Of a stretch of 64,000 nucleotides of DNA, positions 11,800 to 64,000 are shown piece by piece (the stretch's first letter is position 1; every line of letters starts with the position of its first letter). The notes under the pieces are model-generated. The model saw only the letters and a program-made list of their open reading frames with translations. It was not told where the DNA came from and did not search any database. Source of the DNA: Variovorax sp. YR216 (lineage in GTDB: Bacteria > Pseudomonadota > Gammaproteobacteria > Burkholderiales > Burkholderiaceae_C). The position numbers and the translations under genes were made by a program. The stretch is taken from positions 186,001 through 250,000 of the forward strand of contig NZ_FNRO01000004.1 of NCBI RefSeq assembly GCF_900107745.1, read 5' to 3'.

Positions 11800-12732
11800 A
11801 TGCAAGCACTGTGGATGGTGCTGGGGGCACTGATCTTCGCCACCATGGGCGTGTGCGTGAAGTTCGCGTCCGCCTGGTTTTCCTCTGCTGAACTGGTCTT
11901 CTATCGCGGCCTGATCGGCATCGTCTTCCTGTGGATCCTCGCGCGCCAGCGCGGTGTCACGCTGGCCACGCGCTATCCCGGCATGCACGCATGGCGCAGC
12001 CTGATCGGCGTGGTGTCGCTGGGTGCGTGGTTCTACGCGATCGCGCACATGCCGCTCGCGACCGCGATGACGCTCAACTACATGAGCAGCGTGTGGATCG
12101 CGGCTTTCCTCGTCGGCGGAGCGCTGCTGGCGTGGGTGCCGGTGCCGGGCCGCGATGGGCGCGCGCCGCGTCCGCCGTTGCAAGGTCCGCTCGTGCTCAC
12201 CGTGCTGGTGGGCTTCGGCGGGGTGGTGCTGATGCTCAAGCCATCCGTCGAAGGCAGCCAGGGCTTCGCCGGCATGCTGGGCCTGCTGTCGGGACTGACG
12301 GCCGCCTTCGCCTACATGCAGGTGGTCGCGCTGTCGCGCATCGGCGAGCCGGAATCGCGCACGGTCTTCTACTTCGCCGTGGGCTCGGCTGTCGCTGGAG
12401 GACTCGGCACGCTGGTCGGCCCCTCGACGCCCTTCAGTGAATGGACCTGGGGCCACGCCGCGTGGCTGCTGCCGGTCGGCGTGCTGGCCGCGCTCGGCCA
12501 GCTTTGCATGACGCGCGCGTACGCCACCGCCAAGACCGAAAGCGGTACGCTCTTGGTCGCGAATCTCCAGTACTCGGGGATCGTGTTCGCCGCGATGTAC
12601 AGCGTGCTGCTGTTCGGTGACCCCATCGACGCGACCGGCTGGCTCGGAATGGCGCTGATCGTGGCGAGCGGAATTGCGGCAACGGTGCTGCGGCAACGCT
12701 CGTTGCCGAAGGCGCCCGCCGAGGAACATTGA
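11800..12732 (+). CDS. EamA/RhaT-family (DMT) transporter
   Basis: 310-residue inner-membrane protein with ten predicted helices in two EamA repeats; the first starts at MQALWMVLGALIFATMG and the second near residue 160. This superfamily mostly exports amino acids and metabolites; the substrate here is unknown. ATG 11800 is preferred over GTG 11773, which lies in the repeat. The only plausible ribosome site is the G-rich end of that repeat. A tail of charged residues ends the protein. The next gene starts 10 bases downstream. Confidence 0.85.
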   Translation: MQALWMVLGALIFATMGVCVKFASAWFSSAELVFYRGLIGIVFLWILARQRGVTLATRYPGMHAWRSLIGVVSLGAWFYAIAHMPLATAMTLNYMSSVWIAAFLVGGALLAWVPVPGRDGRAPRPPLQGPLVLTVLVGFGGVVLMLKPSVEGSQGFAGMLGLLSGLTAAFAYMQVVALSRIGEPESRTVFYFAVGSAVAGGLGTLVGPSTPFSEWTWGHAAWLLPVGVLAALGQLCMTRAYATAKTESGTLLVANLQYSGIVFAAMYSVLLFGDPIDATGWLGMALIVASGIAATVLRQRSLPKAPAEEH

Positions 12733-12742
12733 AGGACTTCAC

Positions 12743-13648
12743 ATGTACACCACCCTGATTTCCGTCGAGCAACTCCAGGCCCTGAAGGCCAGCGAGGCGC
12801 GGTTGATGGTGTTCGACTGCACCTTCGACCTGATGAAGCCCGATGCCGGCGCGCAGCTGTACCGCACCGCACACATCCCGGGCGCGGTGTATGCCAACCT
12901 CGATACCGCGCTCAGCGCGAAGCACGGCGTGGCCGGCGCGCATGGCGTCGTCGTCGCGAAGGAAGAAGGCCCGCCCGCATCCGGCGGCCGCCATCCCCTG
13001 CCCAGCCGCGAGAAGTTCGCCGCATGGCTCTCCAGCGTCGGCTTCGCCAACGACATGCAGGCGGTGGTCTACGACCGCAACGGCGCCAACTACTGCGGCC
13101 GCCTCTGGTGGATGCTCAAGTGGATGGGCCATGAGGCGGTGGCCGTGCTCGACGGCGGCCTGCAGGCCTGGCAGGCCGCAGGCGGCGCCGTCACGGACCG
13201 CGAGGAGCCCTCTCACTTCCAGTCGAACTTCGTCACCGGCGAGCCGCTGATGCGACTCGTCGACACGAGGACGGTGGCCGCACGACTCGCACAGGCTGAC
13301 CAGACGCTGATCGACGCACGCGCACCGCAGCGCTATCGCGGCGAAGTGGAACCACTGGACCCGGTTGCCGGTCACATCCCCGGGGCCCTGAACCGGCCCT
13401 TTTCCGAGAACCTCGGACCTGACGGGAAGTTCAAGCCGGCCGCGCAACTGCGTGCCGAATTCGAATCGTTGCTGGCGGGCCGGGAGCCGTCCACGGTGGT
13501 CCACCAATGCGGCAGCGGCGTGAGCGCGGTGCCCAACCTCCTCGCGATGCAGGTCGCAGGACTCGGACCGACCGCGCTCTATGCCGGCAGCTGGAGCGAG
13601 TGGAGCAACACGCCGGGGCTGCCGACCCGGCAAGGCGCAGAACCATGA
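12743..13648 (+). CDS. sseA: 3-Mercaptopyruvate/thiosulfate sulfurtransferase (tandem rhodanese)
   Basis: 301 residues with two rhodanese domains. The first (residues about 1-145) lacks the active cysteine, as usual. The second carries the active loop CGSGVSA, cysteine near residue 255. A CG(S/T)G loop is typical of 3-mercaptopyruvate sulfurtransferases, while thiosulfate enzymes tend to have CRKGV. It transfers sulfur to cyanide, thiols or cofactor pathways. ATG 12743 follows AAGGA. Its stop overlaps the start of the DUF2796 gene, which hints at coupled expression. Confidence 0.9.
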   Translation: MYTTLISVEQLQALKASEARLMVFDCTFDLMKPDAGAQLYRTAHIPGAVYANLDTALSAKHGVAGAHGVVVAKEEGPPASGGRHPLPSREKFAAWLSSVGFANDMQAVVYDRNGANYCGRLWWMLKWMGHEAVAVLDGGLQAWQAAGGAVTDREEPSHFQSNFVTGEPLMRLVDTRTVAARLAQADQTLIDARAPQRYRGEVEPLDPVAGHIPGALNRPFSENLGPDGKFKPAAQLRAEFESLLAGREPSTVVHQCGSGVSAVPNLLAMQVAGLGPTALYAGSWSEWSNTPGLPTRQGAEP

Positions 13649-57219: not shown

Positions 57220-58122
57220 ATGCTGAAACTCACCCTCGAAGCCATCGAACTGGTGGACGCGATCGCCCGCCACGGCTCCTTCGCCGGCGCGTCGGAGCGG
57301 CTGCACAAGGTGCCCTCCACCATCTCTTATGCCGTCGCCAAGCTCGAGGAACAACTCGGGCTCGCGCTGTTCATCCGCAACGGGCCGCGCGTCACGCTCA
57401 CGCCTGCCGGCGAGGAACTGATCAAGGAGGGCCGCTGGCTGCTCGCGGCGGCGCGGCAGCTCGAATCGCGCATGCGGCAGATCGCCACCGGCTTCGAGAC
57501 CGAGCTGCGGCTGGTGCATGACTCGCTGATCCCCACTTCCGCGTTGAACGAGGACGTCCGCGCCTTCGAGGACCTGAATTGCGGCACGCGGCTGCGCATC
57601 GGCTGCGAGGCGCTCACCGCCACCTGGGAGGCGCTGCGCGACGGTCGCGCCGACATCGTGATCGCGGCAGGCGAAGGGCCCGCGGGCGGCGGCTACAAGG
57701 CGGTGCCGGTGGGCACGCTCGATTTCGTCTTCTGCGTGACGGCCACGCATCCCCTGGCGCTCCTGCAACGCCCGCTCACGCGCGGCGACCTGCTGGAACA
57801 CACGGCCATCGTGGTCGGCGACGGCGCGCGTTCGCTGACCGACCGCACCGTCGGCCTGCAATCGGGCCAGCGCCGCATCACGGTGCCCTCGATGCAGGCC
57901 AAGATCGCCTGTCAGGCCGCGGGCCTCGGCCATGGCTTCGTGCCCCGGGCCTGCGTGCGCGTGGAGCTGGAGACCGGCATCCTGGTCGAACTCCAGGTCG
58001 AGGAACCGCGCCCGCCCGAGACCTTCTGGCTCGGCTGGCGCACCGAGCACATGGGCGAGGCGCTCAAATGGTGGCGCAACCGGCTCGACCGGCCGCTGCT
58101 GCCGGGCATCCTGCCGTACTAG
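57220..58122 (+). CDS. LysR-family transcriptional regulator
   Basis: 300 residues starting MLKLTLEAIELVDAIARHGS; a frame open to 57070 adds an unlikely leader. The helix-turn-helix is GSFAGASERLHKVPSTISYAVAKLEEQLG, followed by a typical periplasmic-binding-like effector domain. It reads away from the pirin cluster and probably activates it. A dyad CATCG-N10-CGATG (57203-57222) overlaps its own start codon, a likely autoregulatory site. No ribosome site upstream, so the message may be leaderless or nearly so. Confidence 0.88.
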   Translation: MLKLTLEAIELVDAIARHGSFAGASERLHKVPSTISYAVAKLEEQLGLALFIRNGPRVTLTPAGEELIKEGRWLLAAARQLESRMRQIATGFETELRLVHDSLIPTSALNEDVRAFEDLNCGTRLRIGCEALTATWEALRDGRADIVIAAGEGPAGGGYKAVPVGTLDFVFCVTATHPLALLQRPLTRGDLLEHTAIVVGDGARSLTDRTVGLQSGQRRITVPSMQAKIACQAAGLGHGFVPRACVRVELETGILVELQVEEPRPPETFWLGWRTEHMGEALKWWRNRLDRPLLPGILPY

Positions 58123-58130
58123 GATGAAAA

Positions 58131-58222
58131 CACCCCCCGAGCCGCTTCGCGGCTCCCCCCTCTCTCGCCTTCGGCGGGAGGGGGGCGCACCCGGCGGCCC
58201 GGCGAAGCCGGTTCCGCGGGGG
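58131..58222 (+). repeat. Diverged half-length copy of the GC-rich post-stop repeat
   Basis: Begins 8 bases after the LysR stop codon, same direction. First hairpin GAGCCGCTTCGCGGCTC, C-run and G-run hairpin (CCCCCC ... GGGGGG), then CGGCGGCCCGGCGAAGCCGG and TTCCGCGGG, near-identical to the copy at 32839. It lacks the CACTTCGTGT core. It lies between the LysR gene and the phosphatase gene, which end facing each other. Confidence 0.75.
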
Positions 58223-58299
58223 CCCTGGACTTGGACGCGCCGGTTTCATGGGTCGCGGGTGGCGCGCAGCGCCATGGAAAACTGACATCGATACCCGGC

Positions 58300-59514
58300 C
58301 TACAACGCCATGCGGATGATGGTGAAGTCGTCGTCCAGCGGGCCGGGCCCGTGCGCGTCGCGCGCCAGCACCAGCAGGTCGTCGAGCTCCGAATGTCCCT
58401 CGGCGACCGGCCGCGCGAGGAGTTCGCTCATCGCGGAGAACGGCTGCATCGAACCGTCGGGCCGGGTGATCTCGTAGGTGCCGTCGCTGAAGACGAAGAG
58501 CCGCGCCGGCGATTGCAGCGTGCACGCTTCCTCCTGATAGCGGGCCGCCGGCATGATGCCGATGCAGGGGCCGCCGGCCGGCAGGGCGTGGCTTTCGCAC
58601 GCGCCGCCCTGCGGCCCGTTCACCAGCAACGCGGGCGGATGGCCGGCGGATGCGTACCGAAGCTGTCCGCTCGCGCGGTGATAGACGCCGTACCAGACCG
58701 TGGAGAACAACTCCCCGTGGCGCTCCATCTGGTAGGCCTGGTTGAGCGCCGCCAGTACCTCGCCGGGACGGTGGAAATCGGTGCGCGAGAGCGCCTCGGA
58801 ACGCAGCGTGTTCGCCACCGCCACCGACAGCAGCGACGAACCCACCCCATGCCCGCACACATCGACCAGGTAGATCGCGAAATGCTCGTCGTCCACCCAG
58901 TGGTAGCCGAAGGAATCGCCACCAAGCTCGGTCGAGGGCACGAAGCGCCAGTCCACATCCAGCGGCACGGACAAGGGTTCCGGCAGCGTGGCGCGGACGT
59001 AGCGCTCGGCGTCGCGCAGCTCGTGCTGGAGCCGGTCGTGCGTGGCCTGCAACGCCTCGCGCGACGCGGCGAGGTCGCGATGCGTGCGCGTCAGCTCGCC
59101 ATTGGCCGCTTCGAGCTGCGCGATGAGCCGCGCCTCGCGCTGGCTGAGCAGCGTCATGTCGTAGGCCTTCTGCTGCACGAGGCGGGCTTCCTCCCACTCC
59201 GCCGTCACGTCGAGGAGCAGCACCCAGACCCGGTCGTCGTCCGCGAAGAAGTGCACGTCCGCGACGCGGCCGCTGGGCATCGCGAGCGAGCGGATCAGGA
59301 ACGGCGTCTCCACCAGCGGCAGCAGCCCCTCGATGAATGGCAACTGGTCGGAAGCCGGACCGCCGGCCTGCAGGCCATCCAGCCCGTAGTGCGCCAGATG
59401 GCCGCCGGACTGCACCAGGTTCTGCGCCTCGTCGATGACCAGGTGCGCGAGCACGCGCTGACCTTCGAGCAGTTGCAGCAGCGAATCCGCGACGCGCGTC
59501 GGCAGGTCGAACAT
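58300..59514 (-). CDS. SpoIIE/PP2C-type serine phosphatase with PAS-like and coiled-coil input
   Basis: 404 residues. The N-terminal about 110 residues look like a PAS-type sensor (VHFFADDDRVWVLLLDVTAE), then a coiled coil of about 60 residues, then the SpoIIE/RsbU phosphatase: LGGDSFGYHW, DVCGHGVGSSLL, SDGTYEI and DDDFTIIRM carry the manganese/magnesium aspartates. It should dephosphorylate a STAS protein (the one at 63089 is the obvious partner). Starts 3 bases after the GTPase gene stop and is last in the operon. Confidence 0.9.
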   Translation of the reverse strand: MFDLPTRVADSLLQLLEGQRVLAHLVIDEAQNLVQSGGHLAHYGLDGLQAGGPASDQLPFIEGLLPLVETPFLIRSLAMPSGRVADVHFFADDDRVWVLLLDVTAEWEEARLVQQKAYDMTLLSQREARLIAQLEAANGELTRTHRDLAASREALQATHDRLQHELRDAERYVRATLPEPLSVPLDVDWRFVPSTELGGDSFGYHWVDDEHFAIYLVDVCGHGVGSSLLSVAVANTLRSEALSRTDFHRPGEVLAALNQAYQMERHGELFSTVWYGVYHRASGQLRYASAGHPPALLVNGPQGGACESHALPAGGPCIGIMPAARYQEEACTLQSPARLFVFSDGTYEITRPDGSMQPFSAMSELLARPVAEGHSELDDLLVLARDAHGPGPLDDDFTIIRMAL

Positions 59515-59516
59515 GG

Positions 59517-60011
59517 CTATCGCGCAAGGCGCGCCGCGAGGTCCCGAAAGGCTTCCTCGACGCCGGTGCCGGTCTTCGCGCTGGTGCGGTGGAAGGTCCA
59601 GCCTTCGGCCTCCAGCGCTTCGATGCGCGCCGGCGGCAAGGCCCAGTCTTCCACCAGGTCCGACTTGTTGAGCAACACGAAGAACGGCACCTGGCCCAGC
59701 TCCGCGACGATGCGCCGCTGGATCGACTCGGCGGTGTCCAGCGTCTCGGGCCGTGTGCCGTCGACCACCAGCAGATAGCCGGCCGCGCCGCGCAGGTAGG
59801 TCACGCGCACCGCGGCGACCTCGTCCTCGCCGGCGATGTCCCAGAGGATCAGCGCCATCTCCTCGGCACCGACGGTCACCATCTTCTTGTCGATCTTCAC
59901 GCCGACGGTGGTGAGGTAGGTGTCCGAGAAGATGGTGTCGACGAATCGCCGCACCAGGCTGGTCTTGCCGACGCCGAACGCGCCGAGGAGGCAGATCTTC
60001 TTTTGCAGCAT
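59517..60011 (-). CDS. Ras/Rab-like small GTPase (prokaryotic)
   Basis: 164 residues, eukaryote-sized. All five G motifs align with Ras numbering: G1 GAFGVGKTS (10-18), G2 threonine 35 in TTVG, G3 WDIAGED (58-63), G4 NKSD (115-118), G5 SAK (144-146). Two normally critical positions differ: Phe12 (Gly12 in Ras) and Glu62 (Gln61). No lipid site. AAGG precedes ATG 60011; a tight fit with OmpA-domain and phosphatase genes on either side. Possible switch controlling the neighbouring proteins. Confidence 0.92.
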   Translation of the reverse strand: MLQKKICLLGAFGVGKTSLVRRFVDTIFSDTYLTTVGVKIDKKMVTVGAEEMALILWDIAGEDEVAAVRVTYLRGAAGYLLVVDGTRPETLDTAESIQRRIVAELGQVPFFVLLNKSDLVEDWALPPARIEALEAEGWTFHRTSAKTGTGVEEAFRDLAARLAR

Positions 60012-60026
60012 GGGCGCCTTGTTCTC

Positions 60027-61886
60027 CTAGTCCCCGGTGCTCACGCCGAACGACACGCGCCGGTTCATCGAGAGCTCGTCCTCGCTCGCGCCGGGACTCA
60101 GCGGCTCCAGCGGGCCGGCGCCGCGCACGAAGAGCACGCTCGGGTCCACGCCGCGGGCGCGCATCATCGAGCGCACGACCTCCGCGCGGCCGACGCTGAG
60201 CGCGAGGTTCGACATGTCCTTGCCGGTCGCATCGGCGTGGCCGACGATCGTCACCTTCACCGGGAAGCCATGGTCGCGCGCCACCTGCACCAGGTCGCGC
60301 ATCTGGGCGGCGAGCTCTTCGATCTTGGCTTCCTGCCCCGCAGCGGGCCGCGGCACGCTGAAGTCGAAGTGGATGAGCTGGGCCTGGATGGCATCGCGCA
60401 GGCGCACATAGTCGGGGTCCTGCACATCCTTGACCGCGCTGATGTCCACCTTGGGCGCACCGGCGGGCATGCTCAGCAGGTAGGCCCGGGCCTTGTCCAG
60501 CCAGCGCTGCGAGGCGCTGCCGGTGACGCGGATGCTGCCCGCGTCCTGCACCATGCCGATGGTCTCCGGCGGCTCGAGCGTCGCCTGCAGGCGCTTGAGC
60601 ACCATCGCCGGATGCAAGGCCTGGTAGGGCTCCCAGCGGCCGGTGACATGCGACGGATCCAGCTTGTCCGGCAGCAGGGTTTCGGGCAGCACCGCGAGCG
60701 GATCGCGCAGCCCCGAGACCAGCCACTTGCCGTCGCGGCGCTCGAAGCCGGTGACGACGATGCCCGGCTGGTCCTGCAACGCGGCAACGTAGGTGTTCAC
60801 GCGGCTGCGCTCGACGAGGCGTTCGCCGACCCACCACCCCAGCACGGCCAGCAGCGCCAGCGGAATGAGCCACATGAACGGCGAGACCTTCCGGTGCGCG
60901 TCGGCGGTCTGCGAGAGCAGGCAAGGCCGCAGGCGCGACTCCACTTCCTCGAAGGGCGCGGTGTCGCCGCTGAACGCTTCCAGCGGCGCATGCCAATGGT
61001 CGTGAATCTGCCCGAGCGTTTCGTTGAGCCTCGCGCGCACCATCGGCGGCGGGCTGCCATGGATCACGGCGGCAAGGAACGCCGACGGTCCTTCCTCGCA
61101 CCACAGCAGCAGGTCGCCGAGCCGCAGGCTGTCGACGCTGCGGCCGCCCGTGCCGCCAGCGCCGGACTCGTCGAACGAGTCGCGCACGAAGTCCTGGATC
61201 GCGGACAGCATCGCCGAGACGAGTTGCGGATCGCGCGTGGTCGCGTCGTCGCGCGCCACATGCGCGATCAAGAGGCCCGTCGCGCGATGGATCAGGAACA
61301 GGTGCTCGACGCTGAACTCGGCCGTGTGCTTGAGCACCACGTCCGCGAAGGTGCTGCCGGTGCGCCACGCCTCGATGCGCCACTTGAACCCGCGCCACGA
61401 CAGGCTGTGCTTGAACGCGAGATTGAGCGACTGGAAGGTGCCTTCGAGCGTCTCGGCGATGGCCTTGCGGATGGCCGGCCCCATGACCGGGTACAGGATG
61501 TCAACCATCGTGCGCGGGTTCTTCTGGATCGACGCCTGCGTGGCGCGCTCCATGGCCGGCGCGATGGAGTGGCCCAGCCGCTCGTCGCGCACCGCCACCG
61601 AAAAGGCTTCGGGCAGCACCGCGCCGATCGCGTCGGCGAATTCCCGGGGATCGTCGACCTTGCGCTGCAGGTGCGCGAGCACGGCCTGTTCGCGCTCGAA
61701 CAGCATGTCGCGCATCGCATCCAGGCGCGGGTCGGCCTGCAGGCGGCTCGGCATGTCGGCCGTCACCGTCGGATCGACGCAGCGGGCCAACTCCAGCAGC
61801 AGCCCGGCGAGCCGTTTGCTGGGATCTTCCTCGTTGGCGGCGTCACCGGGCGCACGCGTCGCGGCCGGCGACAGGCGGGCGTTCAC
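60027..61886 (-). CDS. OmpA-domain protein with large N-terminal cytosolic region and one membrane helix
   Basis: 619 residues from GTG 61886. No signal peptide. Residues about 1-336 are soluble and helix-rich (RLDAMRDMLFEREQAVLA; FLIHRATGLLIAHVAR), then one helix near residue 337-358 (FMWLIPLALLAVLGWWVGERL), a periplasmic region of about 140, and an OmpA peptidoglycan-binding domain from about residue 500 (VTIVGHADATGKDMSNLALS; NRRVSF). This gives a bridge from cytosol to cell wall. The start is the best guess; an upstream frame runs to 62015. Confidence 0.86.
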   Translation of the reverse strand: MNARLSPAATRAPGDAANEEDPSKRLAGLLLELARCVDPTVTADMPSRLQADPRLDAMRDMLFEREQAVLAHLQRKVDDPREFADAIGAVLPEAFSVAVRDERLGHSIAPAMERATQASIQKNPRTMVDILYPVMGPAIRKAIAETLEGTFQSLNLAFKHSLSWRGFKWRIEAWRTGSTFADVVLKHTAEFSVEHLFLIHRATGLLIAHVARDDATTRDPQLVSAMLSAIQDFVRDSFDESGAGGTGGRSVDSLRLGDLLLWCEEGPSAFLAAVIHGSPPPMVRARLNETLGQIHDHWHAPLEAFSGDTAPFEEVESRLRPCLLSQTADAHRKVSPFMWLIPLALLAVLGWWVGERLVERSRVNTYVAALQDQPGIVVTGFERRDGKWLVSGLRDPLAVLPETLLPDKLDPSHVTGRWEPYQALHPAMVLKRLQATLEPPETIGMVQDAGSIRVTGSASQRWLDKARAYLLSMPAGAPKVDISAVKDVQDPDYVRLRDAIQAQLIHFDFSVPRPAAGQEAKIEELAAQMRDLVQVARDHGFPVKVTIVGHADATGKDMSNLALSVGRAEVVRSMMRARGVDPSVLFVRGAGPLEPLSPGASEDELSMNRRVSFGVSTGD

Positions 61887-61944
61887 CCTCGCCTCTCGCC
61901 GGCCGTGATGGCGTCCGGTCGCACGGAGCGGCTCGCCCGCCCTT

Positions 61945-62568
61945 TCAGCCCGTCTGGCTGCCGTTGACGCCCTTCGGCGCGACGTCCTGATTGAGGCATT
62001 TGGCAATCTCCACAAACAGGCCGGCGAGCAGGTTGCGATCGGTCTTGACGTTGCCGAGCTCGGCGAACATGCGCTCGGTGGTCGCGCGCATGTCGTCCTG
62101 GCGCCGCCGCATCTCGTCGCGCAGGGCCTGCACCTCGTGGTTCAGGCGTTCGGTGAAATCGCGCTCCTGCCGGGCAAGCTGGTCGGAGACCTGCGCGAGG
62201 CGCTTCTCCAGCGCCTGCGTGTGCTCGCGCAGGCTGCGCTCGAGTTCCTTGTCGGCATCGGCACGCAGGTCCTTTTCCTCGCGGAACTGGCCGGCGACCG
62301 ATTCGAGCTGCTTCTTGATCGTCGTTTCGAGGCCGCCGAGGCTTCGCGTCGACTCCGATTCGAGATCGCGCAATCGCAGCTGGAAGCGTTCCTCCATGAC
62401 GGAGAAGCGCTTGTCGTAGTCCTGCATCTGGTTGCCGAACAGCAATTCGCGCATCTTGTCGACACCGGAGGCATCGGCAGAGCCGTTGCCACGGGTCGCC
62501 ATGGCGGCCTGAGCTGCCAGCGCGGCTTGCGGATCAATGCTTGGTACGGGCTTGGCTGTAGTTCCCAT
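61945..62568 (-). CDS. Coiled-coil protein of the GTPase operon
   Basis: 207 residues starting at ATG 62568, with GAGGAGA ideally placed. About 40 low-complexity alanine-rich residues, then a near-continuous heptad-like charged helix (RFQLRLRDLESEST to RDEMRRRQDDMRATTERM), ending with a hydrophobic FVEIAKCLNQDV. No enzyme motif or membrane segment. Probably a structural or scaffolding partner for the GTPase and the cytosolic part of the OmpA-domain protein. No named family recognised. Confidence 0.78.
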   Translation of the reverse strand: MGTTAKPVPSIDPQAALAAQAAMATRGNGSADASGVDKMRELLFGNQMQDYDKRFSVMEERFQLRLRDLESESTRSLGGLETTIKKQLESVAGQFREEKDLRADADKELERSLREHTQALEKRLAQVSDQLARQERDFTERLNHEVQALRDEMRRRQDDMRATTERMFAELGNVKTDRNLLAGLFVEIAKCLNQDVAPKGVNGSQTG

Positions 62569-62651
62569 CGACGTATCTCCTCGGTTGCGTATTGAACGGA
62601 TCGAAAACGGATCGAACAGTGACGGACATCGGGCTGCGGTCCCGGCGGCGG

Positions 62652-63089
62652 TCAGGGCGGCGCCGGGGCACGGAAAAACAGCGTCAGGCGATTGCACCCG
62701 TCCTCGTGGCGGTAGCGCACGCCGTCGGAAAAATGCCGGACCATCGGAATGCCCCAGCCGCCGACCTTCGCGTCGCGCAGGCTGGTGGCTCGAGCGGGCT
62801 CGGGGACCTGCCGCAGGTCGAACTCGCGCCCTTCGTCCACCACTTCGAGGGCCACCTCGTCGCCCTGCCACCCAAGGCGCAGCAGGATGCTCTGCGCGCC
62901 CTCGCCGGCCGCGTGCGTCACGATGTTCGTGACCACCTCGGTCGAGCAGAGATCGAGGTTGTGCGCCAGCCGCTCCGGCAGGTGCTGGCCCTCGGCCCAG
63001 TCGTGCACCCAGGCGCTGATGCGCGGGAGCTCGCGCAGGGCGTTGTCGACGATGAGGGAAGCACCCGGCTCCCCGGCGGCGGCGTCCAT
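62652..63089 (-). CDS. RsbW-like anti-sigma/serine kinase (HATPase_c domain)
   Basis: 145 residues. GHKL ATPase motifs: N-box NLDLCSTEVVTNIVTHA, then VALEVVDEGREFD and the lid GGWGIPMVRHFSDGV. Such small kinases phosphorylate a STAS partner and can sequester a sigma factor or other target. Its ATG (63089) overlaps the STAS gene stop by one base (TGATG), showing coupled synthesis. No sigma factor gene is nearby, so the kinase target is probably something else, perhaps the GTPase system. Confidence 0.9.
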   Translation of the reverse strand: MDAAAGEPGASLIVDNALRELPRISAWVHDWAEGQHLPERLAHNLDLCSTEVVTNIVTHAAGEGAQSILLRLGWQGDEVALEVVDEGREFDLRQVPEPARATSLRDAKVGGWGIPMVRHFSDGVRYRHEDGCNRLTLFFRAPAPP

Positions 63090-63448
63090 CAGCGGCTTTC
63101 GGCAGATGACGCCATCAGCGCGCTGAAGGCGGAATCGACGTCGGGGTACACCGGGATGATCGAATCGATGCCTGCCATCTTGAGCACCTCCGCCACCACG
63201 GGTTGTGGATTTGCCAGCGCCATCGCGCCGCCGCGCAGCGACTGCGCCCTCGCGTTGACGACAAGGGTGCGGATGCCGATGGAGGCCAGGAACGAGACTT
63301 CGGACATGTCCACCACGGCGAGCATCTTGCGGCTCGCCACCAGCGCGGCGAGTCGCGTGTTGATGTCGTGGCCGCCGACGCTGTCCATTCGGCCGACGAG
63401 GCTGATCTTCTCGATGCCCTCGGCCAGTTGTTCGCTCCTCAGATCCAT
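63089..63448 (-). CDS. STAS-domain anti-anti-sigma factor (RsbV-like)
   Basis: 119 residues from ATG 63448 (GGAG five bases upstream). The STAS fold shows VVDMSEVSFLASIGIRTLVV, in which a serine of FLASIG is the expected phosphorylation site. The extra upstream residues of an earlier start (63493) are disordered. Partner of the RsbW-like kinase and substrate of the SpoIIE phosphatase, completing a partner switch. The 198 bp before it contain no gene. Confidence 0.9.
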   Translation of the reverse strand: MDLRSEQLAEGIEKISLVGRMDSVGGHDINTRLAALVASRKMLAVVDMSEVSFLASIGIRTLVVNARAQSLRGGAMALANPQPVVAEVLKMAGIDSIIPVYPDVDSAFSALMASSAESR

Positions 63449-63646
63449 ACACGCTCCGCGGTCGATATCGATGGTGCTGAACCGGTCTGCCACCGCAGGG
63501 ATGAACTGCTTCGCAAGTTCGTCTTGTTCTGATACGAAAACAAGCGCTTCTTGCGTATCGGGAGGTAGAACCTTCTTCTAGCTTACGCTGAAATTTCCGG
63601 CGCGTCGATCACCCCTTTTTAGGGGGGGAACTCACGGACAGTGGGA

Positions 63647-64000
63647 TCAGCGGTCGTTGCGCGCGGGCACGTTGCCCAGGGCCTCGACCAGCCGCTCGAC
63701 CCGGATCGGCTTGGTGACGTAATCGTCCATGCCGGCGGCGAGGCAGGCCTCCTGGTCGCCCTGCATCGCGTTGGCGGTCATCGCGATGATGTGCGGCCGC
63801 TGGCCGGGGCCGAGCAGCGCGCAGATGCGCCGGGTGGCGTCGAGGCCGTCGAGCTCGGGCATCTGCACGTCCATGAGCACCACGTCGTAGACCTGGCGCT
63901 GCACCGACTCCACCGCCTCGATGCCATTGGAGGCCAGGTCGGCGCGATACCCCATCTGCTGGAGCAGGCGCAGCGCGAGCTTCTGGTTCACCACGTTGTC
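63647..64000 (-). CDS. C-terminal receiver domain of a hybrid histidine kinase, 5' end outside window
   Basis: The reading frame enters from the right edge, with the preceding residues DNVVNQK running into the visible part. Receiver motifs: phosphoacceptor Asp in VVLMDVQMPELDG, Thr in IIAMTANAMQG, and Lys in YVTKPIRVERL. The absence of a start or output domain after it and the typical order suggest the end of a hybrid sensor kinase. It lies directly upstream of the partner-switch genes and may be their sensory input. Confidence 0.85.
   Translation of the reverse strand, partial: DNVVNQKLALRLLQQMGYRADLASNGIEAVESVQRQVYDVVLMDVQMPELDGLDATRRICALLGPGQRPHIIAMTANAMQGDQEACLAAGMDDYVTKPIRVERLVEALGNVPARNDR

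Follow-up and report, generated by a model that had tools for sequence, protein, structure and literature searches.

A Group 1 Rup GTPase module with a SpoIIE-STAS-RsbW partner switch as its probable output in Variovorax

Introduction

Six closely spaced genes in Variovorax sp. YR216, encoding a STAS protein, an RsbW-like serine kinase, a coiled-coil protein, a membrane protein ending in an OmpA domain (the bridge), a Ras-like GTPase, and a SpoIIE-type phosphatase, raise the question of which part of the set commands the other: does the partner switch formed by STAS, RsbW, and SpoIIE act on the GTPase and the bridge, or does the GTPase act on the switch? The genes lie at the end of a stretch of 64,000 nucleotides (the window; positions 186,001 to 250,000 of the forward strand of contig NZ_FNRO01000004.1, RefSeq assembly GCF_900107745.1). 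A preliminary description, made from the sequence alone, had placed the switch in control of the GTPase or the bridge, had cited the polarity GTPase MglA as a prokaryotic example, and had known of no described system with this composition. We find this interpretation to be partly supported: the genes do co-occur, the direction of control is probably reversed, and the core of the set had already been described. With moderate confidence, we favor the explanation that the locus encodes a Group 1 Rup GTPase module with a partner switch as its output, in which information would flow from the envelope through the bridge to the GTPase, and from there through SpoIIE and the STAS/RsbW pair to a target.

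Results

The features of the locus are as follows.

63089..63448, minus strand: STAS protein of the anti-anti-sigma type (Pfam STAS, 3e-13; TIGR00377, 1.1e-15, over the cut-off)
62652..63089, minus strand: RsbW-like serine kinase (HATPase_c_2; Pfam, 5.4e-23)
61945..62568, minus strand: coiled-coil protein (alignment of 22; conserved terminal motifs)
60027..61886, minus strand: OmpA bridge, GTG start, with a helical N-terminal part, a predicted longin domain, a transmembrane helix, a periplasmic unit, and an OmpA domain
60906..61316, minus strand: bridge residues 191 to 327, a predicted longin domain (structure model)
60825..60878, minus strand: inner-membrane helix of the bridge, FMWLIPLALLAVLGWWVG, residues ~337 to 354 (assigned by inspection, aligned)
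60063..60311, minus strand: peptidoglycan-binding OmpA domain of the bridge, residues 526 to 608 (Pfam OmpA, 5.3e-9)
59517..60011, minus strand: Rab/Ras-like GTPase of the Rup Group 1 type (Pfam Ras, 4.9e-30; small_GTP, 4e-19)
58300..59514, minus strand: output protein, comprising a PAS-like Rup N-terminal domain, a coiled coil, and a SpoIIE PP2C phosphatase (Pfam SpoIIE, 8.5e-38)
59206..59514, minus strand: predicted PAS-like N-terminal domain of the SpoIIE output, residues 1 to 103 (model, predicted local distance difference test score [pLDDT] of 92)
59170..59172, minus strand: codon of Q115 of the SpoIIE output (sole invariant column among 20 output N-terminal domains)
63647..64000, minus strand: 3' end of a hybrid histidine kinase gene (second receiver), the remainder of which lies beyond the window; a probable extra partner

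Pfam matches and coordinates confirm that the six genes are closely spaced on one strand downstream of a hybrid kinase receiver, and the cytosolic part of the bridge, previously put at 330 residues, comprises ~336 residues up to the membrane helix as placed by inspection. The intergenic gaps from STAS through RsbW, coiled coil, bridge, and GTPase to SpoIIE are -1, 83, 58, 15, and 2 nucleotides, the RsbW-like gene overlapping the STAS stop codon by 1 nucleotide. The SpoIIE gene starts with the ATG at 59514, and a mechanically called open reading frame (ORF) in the same frame extends far upstream.

The core of coiled coil, OmpA bridge, GTPase, and output is of an already-described kind. Group 1 Rup GTPases, named for their unknown function, were described without experiments by Wuichet and Søgaard-Andersen in 2014, when no member had been characterized (PMC4316618). 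According to the sections of that paper on the group, these GTPases have a G3 motif without Gln and are accompanied by a coiled-coil protein and by a protein that joins an unknown domain, a transmembrane helix, and an OmpA domain; their outputs, typically GGDEF/EAL proteins or histidine kinases, have an invariant Gln in the N-terminal part, for which a role in trans was considered possible. The window likewise contains a coiled-coil gene, an OmpA-ended membrane protein, a Gln-less G3, and an output with an invariant Gln, so that the earlier claim of novelty does not extend to this four-gene core. Unlike the typical Group 1 system, it has a SpoIIE phosphatase as its output, together with the STAS and RsbW pair and, in most related loci, the hybrid kinase. 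SpoIIE, STAS, and RsbW are not named in the sections of the 2014 paper on the group, and the list of Rup taxa in its section 16 does not include Betaproteobacteria. Two features appear to be new, namely, the SpoIIE-phosphatase version of the module and the predicted, eukaryote-like longin domain of its regulator.

Conservation was assessed with 42 loci, namely, the window and 41 loci from named genomes; 23 of them (L002 to L024, the window and 22 others) are of the Variovorax type, including one named Xenophilus and one named "Proteobacteria bacterium." The protein homologue searches covered the best 120 of 1863 and the best 120 of 505 matches. All six genes were present in one order and on one strand in 23/23 Variovorax-type loci, and across the 42 loci, the GTPase gene was accompanied by a bridge relative in 41 and by a coiled-coil relative in 40. 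The loci departing from the core were L032, with neither coiled coil nor bridge, and L031, without the coiled coil and at a contig start; in L027, the coiled coil and bridge pair sits on the opposite strand. When 101 Variovorax genomes were searched, the GTPase, the bridge, and close RsbW and STAS homologues were found in an identical set of 28, with no carrier missing any of the four and with all four on one contig in 27 of these carriers, the exception being a 960-contig draft. The close STAS homologues (at least 71% identity) were those of the 28 carriers, and four other Variovorax genomes had only a 31% relative. Because the set was complete in every Variovorax-type locus and the four searched genes marked out the same 28 genomes, the six-gene set is not a product of chance, and the proposal of one co-inherited, envelope-linked set stands, with the four genes co-occurring in 28/28 carriers. 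The neighborhood is not general in the Burkholderiales: outside the genus, the GTPase was rare, being found in 1/399 genomes of a family sample (the window's own genome) and 2/300 of an order sample.

Such tight retention combined with a patchy distribution would fit an accessory system that moves horizontally, which leads to the question of whether the genes merely travel together as an island without functional cooperation. The spread over fewer than one-third of the Variovorax genomes and the near absence from the family and order samples would suit such an island, as would the flanks: when those of the 23 loci were clustered in search of an extra target gene, no family other than the hybrid kinase was common to more than 4/23 loci, in a data set in which ORF calls in GC-rich loci contain antisense frames and genes may be missed. 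We nevertheless consider mere cotransfer to be very improbable, since the order and strand never vary among these loci, the genes overlap or are close-set, no carrier lacks a searched gene, and the SpoIIE N-terminal domain bears the hallmark Gln, which ties this protein to the GTPase.

The direction of control is addressed by the enzyme that follows the GTPase. SpoIIE outputs were found in the 23 Variovorax-type loci and in L025, L026, and L047; histidine or hybrid kinases in L027, L029, L031, L034, and L046; GGDEF or GGDEF-EAL proteins in L041 to L043; HD-GYP proteins in L030 and L040; and nucleotide cyclases in L039, L044, and L045. An N-terminal-domain protein without a recognized catalytic domain comes right after the GTPase in L033 and L035 to L038, where it is followed by a GGDEF-EAL protein (L033), a kinase (L035), a sigma-54 activator (L036), a CheB-CheR kinase (L037), or a PAS kinase (L038); in L036 to L038, this domain is a stand-alone protein of 120 to 135 residues, as expected of a GTPase-binding unit. 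The contig of L028 ends ahead of any output. On the GTPase tree (26 of 46 rows), the six output classes require 8 changes, against a possible minimum of 5, and the SpoIIE class has one, weakly supported origin (55/29), with rhizobial cyclase systems nearby. Because the enzyme after the GTPase varies against an unchanging background of coiled coil, bridge, and GTPase, SpoIIE and its partner switch are more likely to be the output than the controller of the core, which probably reverses the arrangement proposed in the preliminary description.

That arrangement, in which the STAS/RsbW/SpoIIE switch controls the GTPase, the coiled coil, or the bridge so that cytosolic signals change the link to the envelope, agrees with the confinement of close STAS and RsbW homologues within the genus to carriers of the core and with the lack of a separate target gene in the block, and the kinases adjoining some cores could act on the core too. 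We judge it decidedly unlikely: the second-messenger enzymes of L030 and L039 to L045 make most sense as outputs, and most of the 23 non-Variovorax cores have no recognized STAS/RsbW relative in their contigs, although a query search could miss some.

The GTPase, as a further element of the favored explanation, is a single-domain Ras-superfamily protein with canonical G1 to G5 motifs; its closest sequence relative in the PDB is Rab-23 (3e-26), and its sole match in its own genome at an E value of ≤10 is itself. The G3 motif, WDIAGEDE, has Glu at position 62 in place of Gln, and among 46 aligned GTPases, this position is Gln in none and Glu in 41. On the output side, only one column, that of Q115, is invariant across 20 aligned N-terminal domains, which come from SpoIIE, kinase, GGDEF-EAL, HD-GYP, and cyclase proteins and include those of 3/23 Variovorax-type outputs (L028, L032, the plasmid loci, and L047 gave no row). 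A Gln-less G3 in 46/46 GTPases and a sole invariant output column that is a Gln match the trans-acting Gln proposed for the group (PMC4316618), and Q115 would presumably be the same residue as that described there. The N-terminal domain itself is predicted to have a PAS fold.

MglA proved to be a poor model for this protein. Besides the lack of the G3 Gln, there were no Roadblock (MglB; PF03259) matches in the genome at an E value of ≤1, so that another regulator of the GTPase is needed, and an MglA-type polarity module was rejected as a family assignment and retained as an analogy. None of the 46 aligned GTPases has a Cys within its last 6 residues, which is consistent with recruitment to the membrane by the bridge. 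A Nostoc plasmid relative keeps the Rup neighborhood at 42% identity. In L032, from a cyanobacterial metagenome-assembled genome, the GTPase is 55% identical, neither a coiled coil, a bridge, nor a match to the N-terminal domain was recognized, and a hybrid kinase gene lies ~0.5 kb downstream.

A candidate regulator is offered by the bridge, residues 191 to 327 of which are predicted to form a longin domain in an AlphaFold 2 model compared by Foldseek and VIA, a comparison that effectively covered residues 191 to 328, with the helical N-terminal part (residues 1 to 190) outside it. MglC and MglB stood at Foldseek ranks 17 and 18 and were not among the 50 VIA rows listed. The assignment appears to be new with respect to the described Rup core, in which this domain, like that at the N terminus of the output, is given as unknown; here, the two are predicted to be longin and PAS domains, respectively. 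Longins serve as platforms of Rab guanine nucleotide exchange factors (GEFs) (PMC6864590), and because the closest solved relative of the GTPase is Rab-23, a Rab-GEF role may be proposed for the bridge longin.

The coiled-coil protein carries conserved motifs at both ends, LDxxRDILFG at the N terminus and DRxxLAxLFxExA at the C terminus (alignment of 22). Both have look-alikes in the bridge N terminus (61660 to 61886), LDxxRDILFG resembling LxxLRxLLLG and DRxxLAxLFxExA resembling LAxLLxEIA; the two regions have an LRxLLxG motif in common, but hhalign gave a probability of 5.8%, and homology is not claimed. The periplasmic unit of the bridge, between the membrane helix and the OmpA domain (~125 to 150 residues), occurs once in Variovorax and in three to four copies in rhizobial and metagenomic relatives (P0084 and P0094; 883 and 1021 residues), which raises the question of whether it may be a spacer of variable length across the periplasm.

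The three partner-switch proteins carry the motifs expected of them. The STAS motif FLASIGIR occurs in 23/24 aligned rows, and its Ser is the putative phosphorylation site, the Ser position and motif roles being taken from SpoIIAA and RsbV. Alignments also show that the N, G1, and G2 ATP-binding boxes of the RsbW-like kinase are conserved, that the PP2C metal-binding motifs are kept in SpoIIE-type rows, and that the GTPase keeps its P-loop, NKxD, and SAK/SAR motifs across relatives. Of the 12 HATPase_c_2 matches found in the genome, this kinase gives by far the strongest (2.5e-22; the next is 2e-7). A second strong SpoIIE domain is encoded elsewhere in the same genome (G000:C4:7352-7903; 8.5e-34).

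Candidate targets of the switch are control of RpoS or FliA, as in the HsbR-HsbA system, a diguanylate cyclase, and the hybrid kinase. A conventional sigma switch, in which the Rup module would do the sensing upstream and RsbW would be the anti-sigma factor, or STAS would bind one, for an alternative sigma factor such as RpoS or FliA, is a subcase of the favored explanation that names the target, and we regard it as possible but rather doubtful. Other Gram-negative STAS switches have nonsigma targets, such as the diguanylate cyclases HsbD and SiaD; no SigB/F/G-type sigma factor (TIGR02980) exceeded the family cut-off in the genome (15 matches at an E value of ≤1, the best with 126.8 of 234 bits), and none was seen among the genes of the conserved block, the flanks having been clustered, not annotated. 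Speaking for such a target, NCBIfam places the STAS protein in the anti-sigma antagonist superfamily, over the cut-off, and in Pseudomonas, RpoS and FlgM/FliA are acted on by the HsbR-HsbA switch (PMC6482189).

Nine partner-switch queries were run against the 23 non-Variovorax loci and detected parts in addition to SpoIIE outputs only in L025, L029, and L046, although such a search may overlook further HATPase_c_2 or STAS proteins. L046 (Nostoc sp. UHCC 0926 plasmid pn1, 8521 to 15329) has a hybrid kinase with a receiver and an Hpt domain as its Rup output, and within ~4.5 kb past the end of the output gene are HATPase_c_2 and STAS genes as well as separate receiver and SpoIIE pieces, which are split by an opposite-strand ORF without a Pfam match that looks like an insertion. 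L029, from the Acidobacteriota, has an output kinase with an Hpt domain followed by a receiver-HATPase_c_2 protein of the RsbW type (12542 to 13375). Both arrangements would fit a phosphorelay from the Rup output kinase to a partner switch, and because partner-switch parts stand beside Rup cores in these loci, the pairing, they suggest, is not confined to Variovorax.

The hybrid kinase upstream of STAS is a protein of 1287 residues with GAF repeats and the arrangement HisKA-HATPase-REC-REC (Pfam). It lies within ~1.6 kb in 20 of the 23 Variovorax-type loci, the exceptions being L015, L016, and L018, and is probably a separate transcription unit because its orientation is inverted in 4 of these 20 loci. 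Beside it in L002 (13630 to 17316, outside the window) is a large ORF that, judged by eye, combines a Dyp-type peroxidase motif with a cytochrome P450-like C terminus. Scans of positions 58100 to 64000 yielded no promoter-like site and one terminator-like site, under the shuffle mean of 2.4, and both were uninformative. A PADLOC scan matched the coiled coil to ZorA and to the LeoA type and the OmpA domain weakly to the MotB-like ZorB, matched the GTPase weakly through its P-loop and the phosphatase once, also weakly, and gave nothing for STAS or RsbW; the reading as a defense system was rejected, together with that of the bridge as a Zorya-like motor.

Discussion

We suggest that the locus carries signals from the cell wall to a partner switch; which proteins interact, which way the signal runs, which of them promote nucleotide exchange or GTP hydrolysis, and that the switch acts on a target elsewhere are all inferred. 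The bridge would cross the inner membrane and bind peptidoglycan through its OmpA domain, and changes in cell wall or membrane status would alter a platform formed by its longin domain and the coiled-coil protein. This platform, most likely a nucleotide exchange factor or a scaffold, would bind and regulate the GTPase, loading or positioning it. The GTP-bound form would then dock on the PAS-like N-terminal domain of the SpoIIE protein, where Q115 may supply the missing catalytic Gln, making this protein both effector and GTPase-activating protein, so that engagement of the output would also time the switching off of the GTPase. The state of the complex would set the PP2C activity and, with it, the level of STAS phosphorylation; dephosphorylated STAS would capture RsbW or a target of its own, and the phosphorylation state would decide whether STAS or RsbW is free for a target elsewhere. 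The most specific form of this proposal we hold as tentative, somewhat short of an even chance: a wall-anchored receptor with a true longin domain would be the exchange factor or platform for the adjoining Rab-like GTPase, interchangeable PAS outputs would be effectors as well as trans-Gln activators, and the Variovorax module would drive the STAS/RsbW switch.

Several observations weigh against this explanation or parts of it. The tight six-gene operon is documented in one genus, and feedback of STAS or RsbW on the GTPase and its core may occur. Outside the genus, window-type STAS and RsbW homologues were absent beside the SpoIIE-type cores L026 and L047, which lie on short or truncated contigs; the STAS/RsbW-type pair of L025 (11152 to 12067) is more distant, lies on the opposite strand, 2 to 3 kb from the SpoIIE-type core, and adjoins a xanthine/uracil-type permease; and L046 has a SpoIIE gene split in two, HATPase_c_2 and STAS genes on the opposite strand, and thus a looser linkage. 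Q115 is located at the start of a long helix beyond the PAS core. The longin call comes from one model of middling overall confidence (mean pLDDT of 73, predicted template modeling score of 0.49, 35 rows); longin was not among the 25 listed of 51 Pfam families matched by 35 bridge members at an E value of ≤10, the window bridge's own 338 residues gave no Pfam longin match, and the predicted longin helix at residues 220 to 242 ranked 17th of 257 windows in conservation rather than being the top stretch. Finally, no later experiments on Rup GTPases, including any measured interaction, were found in the open-access literature, a search that left most subscription journals uncovered.

Besides the Group 1 Rup neighborhood, close bacterial parallels are MglA/MglB and the actinobacterial conservons, in which a Ras-like GTPase likewise has a partner of the longin/Roadblock superfamily, the conservons adding a kinase. 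Unlike MglA/MglB, the window system has no Roadblock match, a wall-anchored partner predicted to be of the longin type, and Rab-like G motifs from which the G3 Gln is gone. The longin-domain Rab GEFs (Mon1-Ccz1, Inturned-Fuzzy for Rab23, and TRAPP) are eukaryotic and have no detected sequence-level relation to the bridge, in which the predicted longin, in contrast to theirs, is fused to a transmembrane helix and an OmpA domain. SiaABCD is a Gram-negative switch of the same kind as HsbR-HsbA, with a membrane sensor, SiaA, as its phosphatase. The Variovorax switch resembles HsbR-HsbA in combining a PP2C phosphatase, a STAS protein, and a serine kinase-type activity, but the HsbR phosphatase is a response regulator, whereas that of the window is a proposed effector of a small GTPase and is separate from the kinase protein.

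Should this most specific form of the proposal be true, this would be the first partner switch controlled by a small GTPase, revealing a new route by which such switches are governed from the cell wall, and the bridge-GTPase pair would be the bacterial equivalent of the pairs formed by Rab proteins and longin RabGEFs. A correct longin prediction would mean that bacteria have GTPase partners of the longin type as well as of the Roadblock type, which bears on the origin of the Rab-longin partnership. The anatomy of the module, with a regulator of a GTPase platform fold and an effector with a marked catalytic residue, makes the mechanism of Rup GTPases directly testable; the SpoIIE variant gives their output a simple readout in STAS phosphorylation, and the two fold assignments, longin and PAS, make the entire Rup class testable.

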